From Halococcus morrhuae DSM 1307 (GTDB lineage Archaea; Halobacteriota; Halobacteria; Halobacteriales; Halococcaceae), in the NCBI RefSeq assembly GCF_000336695.1, contig NZ_AOMC01000043.1, positions 4,956 through 56,683 on the forward strand: a stretch of 51,728 nucleotides of DNA, given 5' to 3'. A model generated the notes under the pieces. The model was given only the letters and a program-made list of their open reading frames with translations, was not told where the DNA came from and searched no databases. The translations under genes and the position numbers were made by a program. Positions 12,700-33,825 of the stretch are shown here, piece by piece (position 1 is the first letter of the stretch; the number at the start of each line of letters is the position of its first letter).

Positions 12700-12918
12700 A
12701 TGTCCGTCGCCTATCAGATCGTGGACGTTCTCATCGCAGGGGTGGTCGCCGGCCTCTCGGCGTTCGTCCTCAGCGCCATCACGCCGCGATTTTCCGTCAC
12801 CATTGGTGTGATCCTCGCGAGCATGTATTACTTCTCGCGCAACCCCTGGGGCTCCCAGAGTGGTGACGATCTCAACCGCCGGATCGACGATCTCTACGAT
12901 CGCTATCTGCCGTTTTGA
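12700..12918 (+). CDS. small membrane protein (72 aa), unknown
   Basis: One long hydrophobic stretch (residues 6-26), a second (31-44) and an acidic amphipathic tail ending DDLYDRYLPF can be seen. The family is not recognised, but the box GTTTAGGC is centred 27 nt before the ATG, as in the window's other leaderless genes, which supports expression. It is divergent from the ACT-hom pair. Confidence 0.7.
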   Translation: MSVAYQIVDVLIAGVVAGLSAFVLSAITPRFSVTIGVILASMYYFSRNPWGSQSGDDLNRRIDDLYDRYLPF

Positions 12919-16514: not shown

Positions 16515-17045
16515 TCAATCGGCGGTTTCGTTCCCGTCGGCCGGCTCGCCGGCCGGGAACTCCTCGACGGCGACGGTCGATCGCTCCGTCGTGGTCCGTT
16601 CGGTCGCCGACGGGGTCGTTATCGGCGTGTTCCGTGTCGACCGCGCTGTGTCCCGCGTCGACGAGCGATTGGGTACCGATGCGTCCGTCGTCGGTGGTGC
16701 GACCGTCACCACGATCTCCGTCGAGGGGTCGGTCGGCGTTGTCGGCGTCGAAACGTTCCCCGAGCCGCCACCGTCTCCCGGCACACGCCCGTCGGTCGGT
16801 CCACCGGTGTCGAACGCACCCATCACGACCGGATAGGCCACCGCCCCGGCGACGGCGACCAACACGGCCACCAGCACCACCGTCGCGACCGTCGTAGTGA
16901 TGCCGTCAAGCGACGATCGTTCAGGGGATGCGGCTCCGTCGTTCGACCCGAAGCGTCGCTCGCCGTTGCTTGACGCCGTATCGGACGACCCGAACAGCGA
17001 TTCGTCCTCGTCGCCGAAGACGAACCCGTCGTCATCGTCGCTCAT
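16515..17045 (-). CDS. single-pass membrane protein with Ser/Thr/Pro stalk
   Basis: This 176-residue protein has an acidic cytoplasmic N-terminus with SLFGSSDTASS. One transmembrane helix follows (about residues 50-72, ending AYPVVMGAF), then an extracellular Gly/Thr/Ser/Pro-rich stalk. The segment before and through the helix resembles the part of the 17507-19534 product around its fifth helix (DDGLFG, then AFAHPFMTAA), suggesting common origin. It is the last gene of the four-gene minus-strand cluster, 90 nt after the 17136-17510 gene. The family is not recognised; the stalk is probably glycosylated. Confidence 0.7.
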   Translation of the reverse strand: MSDDDDGFVFGDEDESLFGSSDTASSNGERRFGSNDGAASPERSSLDGITTTVATVVLVAVLVAVAGAVAYPVVMGAFDTGGPTDGRVPGDGGGSGNVSTPTTPTDPSTEIVVTVAPPTTDASVPNRSSTRDTARSTRNTPITTPSATERTTTERSTVAVEEFPAGEPADGNETAD

Positions 17046-17135
17046 CGGCCCACCCGTGCTGGACGGACGGTGGGGGGACAAGGGACGCGGGACGCAGTCG
17101 ATGCTGTCATCGGTTGCACTCGACCGCGCGGGGAG

Positions 17136-17510
17136 TTAGCTCTCCGCCTCGGGCTGCCAGGCATAGCAGAGGTTGCCGCCGAGGATCGAGAGCACCACGC
17201 CGAGGACGGCTCCGAGCGGCGTGCCGACGAGCGAAACGACGACGGAGACGACGCCGGCCACGCCGAGCAGCCCCGCGAGATCGGGTTCGACGAGCGCGAA
17301 GACGCCACAGAGAAAGGTCGCCGTCGCCGCGACGAGTGCGAACGCCGACGGGCTGGCTCGGGCGAACGTGATCCCCATCGAAAATATCAGCACGAACGCG
17401 ACGGTGACGCCACCGAGTGCCAACAGCACGCCGCCGAGAAACGGCCGCGATGCCCGCCACTCGCCGAACCGTGCCCGATGGGCCGACAGCCCCAGCCGTT
17501 CGGTGCTCAT
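17136..17510 (-). CDS. four-helix membrane protein, DUF6114-like
   Basis: This 124-residue protein has a cytoplasmic start with RFGEWRASRPFLGG, four hydrophobic helices (about residues 24-46, 52-69, 74-93 and 96-115) and a final GGNLCYAWQPE. The RxxWRxSRPFxGG opening and the (C/A)(Y/F)AWxP end are the pattern I associate with DUF6114, a membrane family paired with DUF6230 in actinobacteria. The same module forms the N-terminus of the protein encoded just upstream, whose stop overlaps this start (ATGA). Function unknown; possibly a membrane partner or exporter-like scaffold for the DUF6230-type proteins. Confidence 0.75.
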   Translation of the reverse strand: MSTERLGLSAHRARFGEWRASRPFLGGVLLALGGVTVAFVLIFSMGITFARASPSAFALVAATATFLCGVFALVEPDLAGLLGVAGVVSVVVSLVGTPLGAVLGVVLSILGGNLCYAWQPEAES

Positions 17511-19534
17511 CGTCGCCTCTGACGATCGCTCGCCAACACGGGGGTGCCGATGAGCGCCGAGCCGTTCGTGCTGTTTTGCCGAGCGGTCGGGGCCGCCGTC
17601 TCCGTGGTCGCCGATGCGTTTCCGGCTCCCGCTGCCGCGGCCGTGGCGGTTTCCGTGGTCGTCGCCGTCGGTGCATCGGTTGCTGTCGGCGTCGGCGAGG
17701 CGGTGTCAGTTGCGCTCGTCGACGGAGCGTCGCCCGATGGAGTCGGAGTGGGCGTCGCCGTCGTCGGTTCGGCTGCCGTCGTTGGCTCAGCCGTCGTCGG
17801 CTCGGACGTCGTAGTCGTCCCGTTTTCGTCGGGCATGCTCGTCTCGTTCCCTGTACTCGTCCGGTTCGGACTGCTCGTCGCGTTCGCCGATTCGTTCGTG
17901 CCGTTTGCAGCCGCAGTCGACACGTTGGTCGAGGCGTTGCTCGCGTTGGCCGAGGCGTTGGACTCGTTCGCCGAGCTGTTCGGCGCGGTGATGGTGAGGG
18001 TTCCGGTGGTCTCGTTCGCGCCGGCCGTGATAGCGTGGTCGTACTCGCCCGGGCTCAGTCCGTCCGTACCGATATCGGTGAACGAGACGGTCGTCTCGTT
18101 GTCCGGACCGAGCGTGACGTTGCGCTGGGCCAGCGTCTCGCCGTCACGGCGATAGGTGACGGTCGTCTCGTCCTCGATGTAGCCCGCGTTCGTCACGGTC
18201 GCGTTCACGTCGTAGCTCTCGTTTCGCTGGACCTCGGCGGGTGCCGCAAAGTCGCTGACCGTGAAGTTGTTGGTCGTCACGTTCGGGCTGATGACGCCCT
18301 CGTCGGTCAACAGCGCGAGCGCGTTCGCCGTGATGAGGTCCAACACTGGCTCGATCGGGTTTTTCGTACACTCGGGGGTCCCCGAGACGCTCGTCGATTT
18401 CGTCCCGCCCTGCATCGTGAGCTCGAGGTTCTCGATGGTGATCGACTGCGCGGACAGCTGATGCGTGTTCGTCACCACCTTGCTCGAATCGATCGGCGGA
18501 CCGGGCAGCGGCCCCAGATCACCGATCGAGAACAGGAAGTCCTCGCCGGGACACGTCGACCACTTCTTGCGTGCCGCCGGGATGACGACCGGATCCTTGC
18601 CGATCCCCAGTCGTCCGAAATACGCCTCCGAGGCCGTCAGCGAGAGCCCGCCCGGAGCCGACGCCGACGATCCCTTGATCGTGAGATGTGACGCTCCACC
18701 CGGGCCGCCACGGAAGTTCTTGTACATCGTCAGCCCCTCGATATTCACGTTGCTCTTGAACGAGAACTTCCCCGCCGGGACGCTCTCGCGGTTCGAACTG
18801 TCGGTCGTGACGTTTTCGTGGTTGAAGCCGCTGCCCGAGAACTCATCGGCGACGACGACGGTGCCGTCGATCCCCTCCTGTTTGGGGAAGTCGCGGGCTG
18901 CCGCCGTCATGAACGGATGGGCGAACGCCCCGAGAACGATCACCGAGACGAGCAGGAGGGCGATCGACGCGGTTCGGCCGCCCGCACCGCCGCCGTCGGC
19001 GCTCGTCGCACGCCGCACGCGCGATCGAGTCCCGAACAGTCCGTCGTCCGACTCCTCGGCAGCCGTCTCGTCGTCGGTGAACTCGAAATCGGCCTCCGTG
19101 GTCCCGCCGGAGCCGCCCCCGCCGTTGTCCCCGTCTTCGGTGTCCTCGTCACGCCAGGCGTAGCAGAGCACGCCGCCGATGATGCCGAGACCGGTACCGA
19201 TGACGAAGCCGCCGAGCGCGCCGTAGAGCGAGAAGATCGAGAACACGACGCCGAAGATCCCGAAGATGTCGGCGTTGCCGGGACGAGTGAGCGCGAAGAT
19301 GCCACAGAGGAACACCAGCGCGGCGAACAACAGCCCGATCGGCGAGAGCGTCTCACCAATGAGGATGGTGTCGGGCGCGATGTTGATCGGAATCCACGCG
19401 ATGACGAGCGACGCCACCACCAACAGCGCACCGCCGGCGAACGGCCGGCCGCGCCGCCAGCGGTCGAACCGGGCGCGTCGCGTTCCAACCGACCCGTTAC
19501 CACCGCCCGACCCGGACTGTGTCATTTCAACCAT
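17507..19534 (-). CDS. DUF6114-like membrane domain fused to DUF6230-like ectodomain, CARDB-like domain and stalk
   Basis: This 675-residue protein has four parts. Residues 20-135 form a DUF6114-like four-helix module (RFDRWRRGRPFAGG to GGVLCYAWRDED). An acidic Gly-rich cytoplasmic linker follows, and a fifth helix lies near 185-205. The ectodomain (about 206-410) is rich in beta-strand patterns, with two cysteines (CPGED and PECTKNP) that may pair; part of it (IEGLTMYK) parallels the separate secreted protein (IDGLELAK). Residues about 425-515 look like a CARDB/Ig-type domain. The last 160 residues are Ser/Thr/Asn/Ala-rich with many N-x-S/T sites. No C-terminal anchor is seen. Either Met (19534 or 19525) may be the start. 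Confidence 0.75.
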   Translation of the reverse strand: MVEMTQSGSGGGNGSVGTRRARFDRWRRGRPFAGGALLVVASLVIAWIPINIAPDTILIGETLSPIGLLFAALVFLCGIFALTRPGNADIFGIFGVVFSIFSLYGALGGFVIGTGLGIIGGVLCYAWRDEDTEDGDNGGGGSGGTTEADFEFTDDETAAEESDDGLFGTRSRVRRATSADGGGAGGRTASIALLLVSVIVLGAFAHPFMTAAARDFPKQEGIDGTVVVADEFSGSGFNHENVTTDSSNRESVPAGKFSFKSNVNIEGLTMYKNFRGGPGGASHLTIKGSSASAPGGLSLTASEAYFGRLGIGKDPVVIPAARKKWSTCPGEDFLFSIGDLGPLPGPPIDSSKVVTNTHQLSAQSITIENLELTMQGGTKSTSVSGTPECTKNPIEPVLDLITANALALLTDEGVISPNVTTNNFTVSDFAAPAEVQRNESYDVNATVTNAGYIEDETTVTYRRDGETLAQRNVTLGPDNETTVSFTDIGTDGLSPGEYDHAITAGANETTGTLTITAPNSSANESNASANASNASTNVSTAAANGTNESANATSSPNRTSTGNETSMPDENGTTTTSEPTTAEPTTAAEPTTATPTPTPSGDAPSTSATDTASPTPTATDAPTATTTETATAAAAGAGNASATTETAAPTARQNSTNGSALIGTPVLASDRQRRR

Positions 19535-19570
19535 TCTGTGTGTCGTGGTGGAAAAACGTATCGACCGTCG

Positions 19571-20248
19571 TTAGCTCAGCGTGACGTCGCCGTCGTCGGT
19601 GTAGTCACCGTCACCGTTGTTGTCGTACTCGGCGGCGAGCGTGAGACCCGGAATCGAGATCTCGTTGACCGCCTGGTAGTGGGCCCGGATCGTCGCGTTC
19701 TGGAGGACGATCCCCGGGTTCGACGCGTTCGAGAAGTCAAGCGTCTTCGGACCACCCGTCGCGCTATCGACGCCTTCCTGACGCTGTTCGCCCGTCGATG
19801 GGGCGACCTGCTTGAACGAGTCGCTGTATTTCGCGTTCTCTTCGTCGATCAACAGTCCGTTGAACGTCGACGAACTGGCCTGAAGCTTGGTCTGTTTGAC
19901 GAGGAGTGAATCCGCCGTCACGGTGTCCGTCGAAGTGATCACGATACGCGCGTTACCGCCGATGGCCGGCACGTCCTCGAGCTCCTTGGCGAGTTCGAGG
20001 CCGTCGATCTCGACCGAGGAGAACTCCGCGGTCGCCACCGGGACACCCTCACGCTCGCTCGTGTCGCTCACGCCCGGATAGAGGTACAGGTCGTCGCCCC
20101 GGAGCTCGTCGGCCTTGATCGTGAACCCGCCGATGCCGCTGATCGGTGCGGCGAAGGCCATGCCGCTGCTCACGATGAGCATCGCCACGAGCGCGACGAC
20201 GCCGAACGACACCGCCGTCCCCTTCGCCAAGACTTTCTTATCGTACAT
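19571..20248 (-). CDS. secreted or membrane-anchored DUF6230-like protein
   Basis: This 225-residue protein has a positively charged start (MYDKKVLAKG), a hydrophobic stretch at about 13-33 and a likely signal-peptidase site after GMAFA. The mature part has regular short beta-strand patterns (GGFTIKADELRG, VEIDGLELAKEL, ARIVITSTDTVTADSL) like the actinobacterial DUF6230 family, sometimes mislabelled cholesterol esterase. The tail DNNGDGDYTDDGD is a possible calcium-binding loop. It is the first gene of the cluster, 36 nt before the fused gene. The start is fixed by the SD match AGGTGAT at 20254-20260. Function unknown; a surface role together with the DUF6114-like proteins is inferred. Confidence 0.75.
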   Translation of the reverse strand: MYDKKVLAKGTAVSFGVVALVAMLIVSSGMAFAAPISGIGGFTIKADELRGDDLYLYPGVSDTSEREGVPVATAEFSSVEIDGLELAKELEDVPAIGGNARIVITSTDTVTADSLLVKQTKLQASSSTFNGLLIDEENAKYSDSFKQVAPSTGEQRQEGVDSATGGPKTLDFSNASNPGIVLQNATIRAHYQAVNEISIPGLTLAAEYDNNGDGDYTDDGDVTLS

Positions 20249-31661: not shown

Positions 31662-31690
31662 AAAAAACGGGACGACCCGTCGGGGGTCGT
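31662..31690 (-). terminator. hairpin plus T tract after the beta-helix gene
   Basis: On the minus strand ACGACCCCCGACGGGTCGT folds into a stem immediately after the stop codon. It is followed by CCCG and a run of six T. This is the bacterial-type intrinsic terminator layout. Confidence 0.6.
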
Positions 31691-33825
31691 TACTCGTCGA
31701 GCGTTTCGGGGTCGGTGGTGATCGAGACCGAGTCCTCGATCGATGCCTGGACGAGTTCGCCGGTGTAGGTGTACTCGTCGCGGAAGCTGCCGACGCCGCC
31801 CGAGACCGAGCTGTTGTCGTCGGAGATCGGGTCGGTCGAGTCGTCGGCGTGTTCGAGTTCACCGGTGACTTCGAGCGAGTAGTCGGTGCCGCTCCCGTCC
31901 TCGCCCATCACCGTGATGGTGCCCGCGTCGCCGTCGAGCTTGATCGTCGCACGGTCGTCGACTTCGAGTGAGACGATCTCGCCCTCGTACTCGTAGGCGT
32001 CGCGCCACTCGTTGACGCCGCCCGAGGCGCTCTTGCCGGAGATGTCGTCGTTGGAGTCCTTGGTCGCCCCGCCAGTCCCGGCCTTGTCGATGTTGCCGCT
32101 CGTCTCGACGTCGTAGGGGATGCGTCCGCCCGAGGTGTCGGTATCCGTGACGACGAAGTTGGCGTTGTCGGATGGTTCGGGGACGTCGGACTCGTTGACG
32201 TCGCCGCTCAGTTCGTCGTCGGAGCCCGCACCGTCGTCGTTGTTCGACGAGTTGTCCGAATCGGACGAGGAATCCTTGGAATCGGAGTCGTCGCTCGATT
32301 CCGAGGAGGAGTCGTTCGACGAGGACTCACTCGACGAATCGTCGCCCGACGACTCGTTACTGGACGAGTCGCTGCTGGACGAGTCATCGCCCGAAGAGCT
32401 GTCGGAGCTATCCGAATCGGAACCGCTCGAACCCGACGAGCCGCTGTAGCTCGACGAGTCGAGGTTCGGGGCGGGACAGCTGCCGCTCTTGTCGATCCCG
32501 CTGACGTTCACGTCACCGTTGCGGACGCGGACCGCCTGTGCGCCCGCGTTGATGGTGGAGTTCTTGACCGTACTGCCACCACAGTTGTGCAGTGCGAGAC
32601 CGGTCCGCCCGCCGCCGGTCTGCTGGATACAGCAGTCCTTGACGGTCGTACCGGAACGATCCTCGATGAGGACGCCGACCCAGTCGGAGGCGTCGCCGGT
32701 GACGCTCACGTTCTTGAACGTGCCGCTGCCGGAGCCGCCCGGCTTCGCGCGGATCGAGTAGCCCTGTGGGTTGTACTCAACGTTCGTGTTCTCGATGGTG
32801 AACTCGCCGTAGTTGCCGAAGATCTGGATCCCACCGTCGGCGTTGACCTCGGGGCCGACGCGGACGTCACAGTTGCGGACGACGGCACCGGAGCCGCCAC
32901 GGTCGCTTTCGAGGCGGATGCCCGAGCCGTTGAGCATGTCCTTGGGGTTCGGCGATCGGCTGTCGGAGACGTCGGCCTCGATCGTCGCGCCATCGACGTA
33001 GCTGCCCGAGCTGCCGATCCGGACCTGCGAGAGGTCGTTGTTCCGGTAGGTGCCGCCCTCGACCTTCACCACACCGGGGGTACGGCTGGCGTAGACGCCG
33101 TTGTTCGAGAAGCCCTCGACGTTGCAGTTGCGCAGGGTGATGGTCCCCTTGTTCGAGCTGCCGATCCAGATACCGGAGCGGGCGTAGGCACCCATCCGGC
33201 CCTCGTTGTGCGCGACGAGGTTTTTGACCGTCCCCGAACCGCCCGAGGAGCGAATCATCGGCGTGAACGCGTCCTCGGCGCTATCGCTCGATTGGAGGCT
33301 CTGGCCTTTGATCGTGACGTCGTGAACCTGGAGGTTGTCGTCGGGAGCGACCTGGAGGTTCGGACACGCGCCGCTCTGGTCGATCGTGATGTTTTCGACC
33401 AGCGCGCCCGACCCGCCGTTGATCGCCAGCAGCGTGTCGTTGAAGCCGTCGGGGACGGTGAAGGTGACGTCGCCTTCGCCGACAATACCGACGCTACCGC
33501 CGCTGATGACGTTCTTCTGGGTGAACTTGTACGTTCCCGAGGGGAACTTGAGCAGGGTGTTGCTGCTTGCGGCCGACTGAAGTGCACCGTCGGACGCCTC
33601 GTTGCCGTTCGGGTCGGCACCGGCATCAGCCATGTTTACAACGTTATCGAAGCTGATCCCGTGGCGTTCGGTCGCCGCCGCCCCCTCCCCAGCGAGCAGC
33701 GGAACCGACACGGCAGCCGCACCGGCAGCCTTGAGATACGACCGTCGGCTTGGTTTGAAACCGTCGTCTGTGCTATCGCTATCGTTGCGTACTCCGTCGC
33801 GTGGCATCGTCTGCTCATTAGGCAT
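31690..33825 (-). CDS. Tat-exported parallel beta-helix protein with Ser/Asp linker and C-terminal repeats
   Basis: This 711-residue secreted protein has a twin-arginine signal SRRSYLKAAGAAAVSVPL with the Arg pair at residues 27-28. A right-handed beta-helix of pectate-lyase type follows (about 50-440), with recurrent turns such as VKNLVAHNEGRMGAYARSG and ENTNVEYNPQG. Then come about 85 residues almost wholly of Ser, Asp, Asn, Glu and Gly (about 455-540). At the end, two similar modules share SGGV-x3-RD-x-Y-x-Y-x-GE (about 595 and 670). Such proteins bind or cleave polysaccharides. Catalytic residues cannot be assigned. Starts at Met 33825 or 33807 are both possible. Confidence 0.8.
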   Translation of the reverse strand: MPNEQTMPRDGVRNDSDSTDDGFKPSRRSYLKAAGAAAVSVPLLAGEGAAATERHGISFDNVVNMADAGADPNGNEASDGALQSAASSNTLLKFPSGTYKFTQKNVISGGSVGIVGEGDVTFTVPDGFNDTLLAINGGSGALVENITIDQSGACPNLQVAPDDNLQVHDVTIKGQSLQSSDSAEDAFTPMIRSSGGSGTVKNLVAHNEGRMGAYARSGIWIGSSNKGTITLRNCNVEGFSNNGVYASRTPGVVKVEGGTYRNNDLSQVRIGSSGSYVDGATIEADVSDSRSPNPKDMLNGSGIRLESDRGGSGAVVRNCDVRVGPEVNADGGIQIFGNYGEFTIENTNVEYNPQGYSIRAKPGGSGSGTFKNVSVTGDASDWVGVLIEDRSGTTVKDCCIQQTGGGRTGLALHNCGGSTVKNSTINAGAQAVRVRNGDVNVSGIDKSGSCPAPNLDSSSYSGSSGSSGSDSDSSDSSSGDDSSSSDSSSNESSGDDSSSESSSNDSSSESSDDSDSKDSSSDSDNSSNNDDGAGSDDELSGDVNESDVPEPSDNANFVVTDTDTSGGRIPYDVETSGNIDKAGTGGATKDSNDDISGKSASGGVNEWRDAYEYEGEIVSLEVDDRATIKLDGDAGTITVMGEDGSGTDYSLEVTGELEHADDSTDPISDDNSSVSGGVGSFRDEYTYTGELVQASIEDSVSITTDPETLDE

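Follow-up and report, generated by a model that had tools for sequence, protein, structure and literature searches.

A fused and duplicated DUF6230/DUF6114 gene cluster in Halococcus morrhuae with a possible role in handling hydrophobic compounds at the cell surface

The window analysed here, a stretch of 51,728 nucleotides from contig NZ_AOMC01000043.1 of Halococcus morrhuae DSM 1307 (GCF_000336695.1) to which all positions refer unless a locus handle is given, contains a cluster of four genes built on two Pfam families of unknown function, DUF6230 and DUF6114 (Table 1). The four open reading frames (ORFs) lie on the minus strand in the order that an earlier note, made from the letters of the DNA alone, had given. 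The start/stop overlap and the short gaps described there are likewise present: genes 2 and 3 overlap by 4 bases, and 36 bases separate genes 1 and 2 and 90 bases genes 3 and 4. Compared with three Halococcus relatives, the ratio of nonsynonymous to synonymous substitution rates (dN/dS) falls in the following ranges: gene 1, 0.05-0.22; gene 2, 0.14-0.33; gene 3, 0.14-0.32; gene 4, 0.29-0.42. All four genes are under purifying selection in Halococcus and, because these ratios are low, we regard the ORFs as real genes.

Table 1. Features of the DUF6230/DUF6114 cluster in the window (aa, amino acids).
Feature	Position	Strand	Description
Gene 1, DUF6230 protein	19571-20248	minus	225 aa; Pfam PF19741
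Gene 2, DUF6114 with divergent DUF6230-like domain, predicted fusion	17507-19534	minus	675 aa; Pfam PF19609 and hold-out profile
Gene 3, stand-alone DUF6114	17136-17510	minus	124 aa; Pfam PF19609, predicted membrane helices
Gene 4, predicted stalk protein	16515-17045	minus	176 aa; no Pfam match
Probable TATA box of the cluster, TTATATAA	20454-20461	minus (palindromic)	about 200 bases before gene 1

The families named in the earlier note were recovered with the Pfam models: gene 1 passes the gathering cut-off for DUF6230 (39.9 vs 27.5 bits), and genes 2 and 3 pass that for DUF6114 (86.5 and 74.6 vs 27.9 bits). According to hydropathy, gene 1 starts with a hydrophobic signal helix (residues 6-39) with an A31-F-A33 box, which is followed by a beta domain (residues 42-209); A31 and A33 are invariant among 16 haloarchaeal and bacterial DUF6230 sequences. 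The AlphaFold2 model of gene 1 (mean predicted local distance difference test score, pLDDT, of 78; predicted TM-score, pTM, of 0.71) consists of a helix and 15 strands, eight of which comprise at least six residues. Most blocks of its core show pLDDT values of 84-96, while residues 131-180 reach only 51-72. In a structure alignment of 48 DUF6230 sequences, i.e. 47 that were left of 63 after removal of near-duplicates plus that of the window, F42 is the sole invariant residue. Assignment of DUF6230 to a known fold by sequence was rejected, the best 60 of 594 PDB matches being antibody light chains with E values of at least 0.014.

Gene 2 shows a composite layout. An arginine-rich N-terminus and the DUF6114 domain (residues 23-128) are followed by an acidic linker, a fifth membrane helix (residues 183-213, by hydropathy), a divergent DUF6230-like domain (residues 186-383, approximately) and a Ser/Thr/Asn-rich tail; a CARDB-like stretch recognised by eye has no Pfam match. 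The Pfam DUF6230 model gives no match in the second domain. A profile of stand-alone DUF6230 proteins, from which four relatives of gene 2 were held out, detects this domain with E = 1.3e-7 as well as L060_7 (E = 1.4e-8) and L062_7 (E = 2.4e-8); the held-out L068_6 is absent from its matches up to E = 10. Profile-profile comparison of the second domain with DUF6230 yields a probability of 92. Judged by these profiles, gene 2 is a DUF6114/DUF6230 pair fused in one chain, so that the fusion claimed earlier can be refined to DUF6114, membrane helix, divergent DUF6230-like domain and Ser/Thr/Asn-rich tail, and the proposal of a membrane part carrying beta-rich ectodomains gains support. DUF6114, helix and outer domain are also found in one chain in Halorientalis, Microbacterium, Corynebacterium and Nocardiopsis.

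The N-X-S/T sequons of genes 1, 2 and 4 are concentrated within residues 401-675 of gene 2 (21 of 28), and the last 155 residues of this protein contain 14 sequons and 37% Ser plus Thr. In line with the decoration by stalks suggested earlier, DUF6230 proteins of relatives carry a PKD (L051) or a PA14 domain (L057), and a neighbouring surface protein in L054 carries a CARDB domain. Read from the sequence, the fifth helix of gene 2 ends in A-F-A-H-P and the helix of gene 4 in A-V-A-Y-P. Since these boxes are of the same kind as the A-F-A box of gene 1, processing of the gene 2 product into two parts appears possible. Gene 4 combines an acidic N-terminus, a single hydrophobic segment (residues 44-80) and a Ser/Thr-rich outer part; its counterparts in the three Halococcus relatives are 82, 84 and 53% identical, and it was not found in L061, a locus of another genus. 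For DUF6114, whose structure alignment comprises 48 of 70 sequences, no PDB match has an E value better than 2.6.

To place the cluster among its relatives, a pattern taken from the DUF6114 alignment was scanned, non-exhaustively, against one genome per species (84,980 species), and 67 loci were confirmed among 224 candidate stretches; only matches of 110-330 residues entered the profile. The confirmed loci comprise 21 from haloarchaea, 4 from Bacilli and 42 from Actinomycetota, including two from Rubrobacter. In 62 of the 67 loci, as in the window, the gene immediately before DUF6114 on its strand is DUF6230. The five exceptions all belong to Halorientalis, and in two of them (also seen as L055 and L083) DUF6114 forms the end of a long membrane protein. 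Among 292 haloarchaeal genomes, DUF6114 occurs in 32 and DUF6230 in 31, both sets being the same except for G253, which has a weak DUF6114 match only; this survey replaced one with the Pfam DUF6230 model (17 of 292), which had missed the source genome. The pairing of the two families, as proposed in the earlier note, is hence borne out by gene order and by co-occurrence in 31 haloarchaeal genomes. The pair is present in actinobacteria, as stated there, and it is not restricted to them, occurring in Bacilli and other haloarchaea as well. Up to 8 DUF6114 and 7 DUF6230 matches per genome were found in Halorientalis, which has the most DUF6114 matches of any genus.

A third gene is usual in the module. 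In all four Bacilli loci its product is predicted to be secreted and contains a DUF6230-like domain (profile probability 98). Of the 16 named haloarchaeal loci that have DUF6230, 13 contain a secreted family, c5, and 13 a membrane family, c7; c7 resembles DUF5518 with a score below the cut-off. A relationship of c5 and of the actinomycete third genes to DUF6230 was rejected at profile-profile probabilities of at most 3.5, and because of these values we call them analogous by position. In this light, the Halococcus cluster may be read as the usual three-part module in which parts two and three are fused and to which a second DUF6114 and a stalk gene are added.

Several variants were observed in the course of the survey. 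In Halorientalis L052, L055, L058, L083 and L084, DUF6114 ends a long membrane protein, in which no other Pfam family exceeds its cut-off (scanned for L052), and stand-alone proteins resembling its repeated part occur near the module at other loci (L061_8, L078_9 and L079_5). The third protein of L061 (6099-7514) contains a long Asp/Thr-rich repeat with below-cut-off apolipoprotein and phasin scores; it looks amphipathic and may be of interest with regard to lipid binding. Rubrobacter (L115, 4041-6380; L121, 827-3331) combines a DUF6230-like domain with transglycosylase SLT and peptidase M23 domains, which suggests a link to cell-wall remodelling. L069 and L070, from small haloarchaeal genomes of 2.1-2.3 Mb (family f11), hold six DUF6230 genes and one DUF6114 gene each. 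Of the plasmid searches, one gave a Natronococcus match, one nothing and one five actinomycete matches, none of which overlaps an annotated gene.

The cluster is flanked by the genes of ribosomal protein S7 and elongation factor EF-2, both above their NCBIfam cut-offs, and a DUF5781 gene in opposite direction sits between gene 4 and EF-2. This position recurs in Halococcus, in L061 (another genus of the same family) and in Halorientalis, for which both sides are seen in L054, L073 and L168, the S7 side in L051 and the EF-2 side in L072. Upstream of gene 1 lies TTATATAA, which occurs once in the window and in none of 100 shuffles. It is kept in the upstream regions of L060 and L062, the two other Halococcus regions aligned; the corresponding position in L061 has a different sequence. 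It is probably the TATA box of the cluster's own promoter. A role in translation was dismissed because of this probable promoter and because the module occurs elsewhere in quite other neighbourhoods. Two further proteins without Pfam match were observed in the window: a 72-aa membrane protein (12700-12918), which recurs beside EF-2 in Halococcus and Halorientalis, and a 711-aa protein (31690-33825) whose start looks twin-arginine-like by eye.

A first indication of function comes from two proteins of Geobacillus thermoleovorans B23. As described in passages of PMC2676291, P21 and P16 appear in the insoluble membrane fraction during degradation of long-chain alkanes, their induction coincides with this degradation and increases with chain length, and their sequenced N-termini follow signal peptides of 38 and 45 residues. 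We searched the six published P21/P16 peptides against all 67 loci plus the window, translated into 7491 six-frame ORFs. For both N-termini, all of the top 12 matches are DUF6230 proteins. Gene 1 of the window ranks third for the P21 N-terminus with a score of 60 (best non-DUF6230 match, 34), and the mature N-termini of P21 and P16 align from its residues 33 and 34 onward. With the internal peptides, DUF6230 proteins account for 8 (P21-37), 4 (P16-16), 4 (P21-20) and 2 (P21-14) of the top 12 matches, and the best match of P16-16 is a DUF6230 protein of Anoxybacillus (58 vs 33 for the best non-DUF6230 match). According to sections of PMC10867098, database models of P21 and P16 show a large beta-barrel with an N-terminal helix, and the P21 orthologue GK2770 of Geobacillus kaustophilus adjoins GK2771, the alkane monooxygenase gene R2loxI (R2lox, R2-like ligand-binding oxidase), in a cluster that also holds genes for alcohol and aldehyde dehydrogenases, an acyl-CoA ligase and beta-oxidation. 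The same source cites Kumar et al. 2020 for an R2lox gene that is induced on hexadecane in a hexadecane degrader (PMC12292952, in part), Halorientalis hydrocarbonoclasticus.

A second indication comes from genome content. The R2lox model NF006202 gave some match in 159 of the 292 haloarchaeal genomes. A best match with E ≤ 1e-20 is present in 30 of 31 module genomes and in 63 of 261 others (Fisher p = 7e-16), and three or more matches are present in 25 of 31 vs 10 of 261 (p = 1e-22). The module genomes hold 107 R2lox-like copies, compared to 54.9 and 92.5 expected from shuffling the module labels of all 292 genomes within families and within genera, respectively; the observed number was never reached in 20,000 shuffles each (genus p = 5e-5). 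A first within-genus test, in which unlisted genomes without match were left out, had given 63 copies vs 49.7 expected (p = 1e-4). As controls, genome size gave p = 0.13 within families and 0.36 within genera, presence of rhodopsin gave 23 of 31 module genomes vs 179 of 261 others (p = 0.68), and sulfatase counts, which run to at least about 7, gave p = 0.31 within genera. Haloarchaeal module genomes therefore carry more R2lox-like genes, within genera too, and the controls show little or nothing. Five of the haloarchaeal proteins were scanned and fall below the NCBI cut-offs, their best matches being R2-like ligand-binding oxidase models, and for two that were compared with the PDB the nearest chains are those of R2lox. 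For the R2lox-like protein of L159 the nearest solved chain is 4hr0 (E = 5e-27), which we take to be R2loxI of G. kaustophilus. With both indications combined, the earlier statement that the pair has no known function no longer wholly holds, as DUF6230 matches the N-termini of alkane-induced proteins and a link exists between the module and R2lox-like oxidases.

Catabolic genes are also found next to the module. The Salinibacillus locus L109 comprises genes for a thiolase, SCP2, R2lox (380 bits vs the cut-off of 194), an acyl-CoA ligase and a LuxR-type regulator together with two DUF6230 genes, DUF6114 and a third gene, and the Terrihalobacillus locus L108 comprises an aldehyde dehydrogenase, SCP2, an acyl-CoA ligase, a regulator and the module. 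The LuxR-type regulator stands divergently beside the module in all four Bacilli loci, and a TetR-type regulator is found near it in the four actinomycete loci scanned for a regulator. In Halorientalis L163, a DUF6230 gene without DUF6114 is located beside 3-hydroxyacyl-CoA dehydrogenase, thioesterase and MaoC genes. Two further arrangements were noted: a contig of Halococcus thailandensis (L158) ends in 34 residues of a second DUF6230 protein (G236:C96:82-183), 4.3 kb from an R2lox-like gene, and in L065 (2002-4708) genes for an R2-like oxidase, a 2Fe-2S ferredoxin and an SCP2-domain protein lie a few kilobases from the module.

Surface location and pairing of the module we consider well founded. 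That it serves to capture or handle hydrophobic compounds, such as long-chain alkanes or lipids, rests on relatives and statistics and is, in our estimation, evenly balanced between right and wrong. Starting from the observed families, fusion, gene order, co-occurrence and links to R2lox-like genes and alkane-induced relatives, we infer binding, substrate, direction of transport, processing of gene 2, formation of a complex and uptake rather than protection or adhesion. Gene 1 would be exported and cut at its A-F-A box, its beta domain working at the outer face. DUF6114 would be the membrane part that holds the outer domains and perhaps the site at which the substrate enters the membrane, gene 2 would join this membrane part and an outer beta protein with its stalk in a single chain, and genes 3 and 4 would supply a second DUF6114 and an added stalk. 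The stalks would extend across the surface layer of the cell. R2lox-like monooxygenases, whose genes lie elsewhere in the genome, would then oxidise the captured hydrocarbon before it goes on to beta-oxidation. To our knowledge, the uptake of long-chain alkanes by cells without an outer membrane is poorly known. We tentatively extend the proposal, at somewhat less than even confidence, to an unrecognised hydrocarbon/lipid uptake machine of such cells, composed of DUF6230, DUF6114 and a stalked third protein, which would be common to Bacilli, Actinomycetota and haloarchaea, would show an expansion in Halorientalis and would supply R2lox-type oxygenases over some of its range. The Halococcus version would then unite membrane port and outer receptor in one chain.

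A number of points weigh against a role in capturing hydrophobic compounds. The main weakness is that no member is known to bind or move anything. The DUF6230 fold found no match with Foldseek (best E of 0.18 in the PDB and 0.025 in a viral library, TM-scores of about 0.1), and the DUF6114 model, a first helix at residues 14-28 with four further helices, is weak (pTM 0.42). Two of the six peptides, P21-14 and P21-20, give no clear DUF6230 signal. In the passages of PMC2676291, disruption of the P21/P16 genes had not succeeded, palmitic acid, tributyrin and trimyristin had no inducing effect on the proteins, and the P21 message measures about 700 bases. As the ORF takes up 603 of these, P21 seems to be transcribed alone, without DUF6114 on the message. 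The R2lox-like counts take in weak matches, which probably are ribonucleotide reductases, and one module genome, G175, has a weak match only (E = 1.7e-9). In H. morrhuae DSM 1307 itself the R2lox-like proteins score 149 bits, below the NCBIfam cut-off of 194, for which reason we name them R2lox-like, and their genes lie on contigs other than that of the cluster. R2lox above the curated cut-off is found in 5 of 19 bacterial module genomes, so the link is not general in bacteria, and the sulfatase control is borderline within families (p = 0.052, with counts that run to at least about 7).

These points leave room for other explanations. In a general complex for surface display or adhesion, DUF6114 would anchor beta ectodomains and stalks for attachment to surfaces or other cells, and the connection with hydrocarbon metabolism would be ecological, via adhesion to oil drops or organic particles. 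The decorations, which differ among relatives (PKD, PA14, CARDB), the presence of six DUF6230 genes with a single DUF6114 in each of L069 and L070 and the Rubrobacter domain joined to transglycosylase and M23 peptidase domains fit this explanation. Persistence of the R2lox link within genera argues against it, as do the catabolic genes beside the module in two of four Bacilli loci, L108 and L109 being those in which the wider neighbourhood was scanned. We consider surface display or adhesion less likely than not. If the module were instead induced when hydrophobic compounds enter the membrane, and shielded or repaired the envelope without taking up substrate, the increase of P21/P16 induction with chain length during alkane degradation (PMC2676291, in part) and the divergent LuxR-type regulator of the Bacilli loci would be accounted for. 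The identified neighbours in L108 and L109 (acyl-CoA ligase, SCP2, R2lox, thiolase, aldehyde dehydrogenase) are, however, catabolic rather than repair genes. We regard such protection as improbable.

The least probable reading takes DUF6230 for an enzyme belonging to the cholesterol esterases of actinomycetes. Its starting point is a similarity of the P21 and P16 N-termini to the cholesterol esterase of Streptomyces lavendulae, reported in PMC2676291, whose authors, in the passages concerned, found negligible full-length similarity and rejected the assignment. In our analysis, which covered 48 sequences of DUF6230, the family differs in keeping F42 as its only invariant residue, and gene 1 has no G-x-S-x-G motif by eye; on these grounds we rejected the candidate as well. 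As far as passages of PMC4098958 and PMC12772271 go, these merely use the name cholesterol esterase, and for SCO5420, the esterase of PMC7494193, no tie to DUF6230 could be made from the sections at hand. Capture or handling of hydrophobic compounds at the surface remains the role that we favour.

In searches of the literature by family name, DUF6230 came up only in a promoter table and DUF6114 nowhere in the passages returned, and neither name was found in the sections and passages of PMC2676291 and PMC10867098 examined. The families as such are known, and their fused and duplicated form at the S7/EF-2 site represents a variant; no connection between DUF6230, P21/P16 and archaeal R2lox-like genes has, judging from our searches, been published. 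Two Pfam families of unknown function would in this way gain a concrete, testable role, connected with R2lox enzymes and with alkane-induced proteins reported in 2009. This link covers both archaea and bacteria and directs attention to organisms, e.g. Halorientalis, in which it can be tested.

Compared to the DUF6230-DUF6114 pair of Pfam, the Halococcus cluster has both families above their cut-offs and the same order, DUF6230 before DUF6114, and differs in its fused chain, the duplicated DUF6114, the added stalk gene and the S7/EF-2 site. P21 and P16 resemble gene 1 in the mature N-terminus (P21 AFPLSGVGGFTISADLI vs gene 1 AAPISGIGGFTIKADEL), in the signal peptide and in size (201 and 196 aa vs 225 aa); unlike gene 1, they are bacterial and known to be alkane-induced, and P21 is seemingly transcribed alone (PMC2676291, in part). 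With the alkane cluster GK2769-GK2782 of G. kaustophilus, as described in sections of PMC10867098, the module shares a P21-type gene (GK2770), which stands there beside R2lox, whereas H. morrhuae DSM 1307 keeps module and R2lox-like genes on separate contigs.

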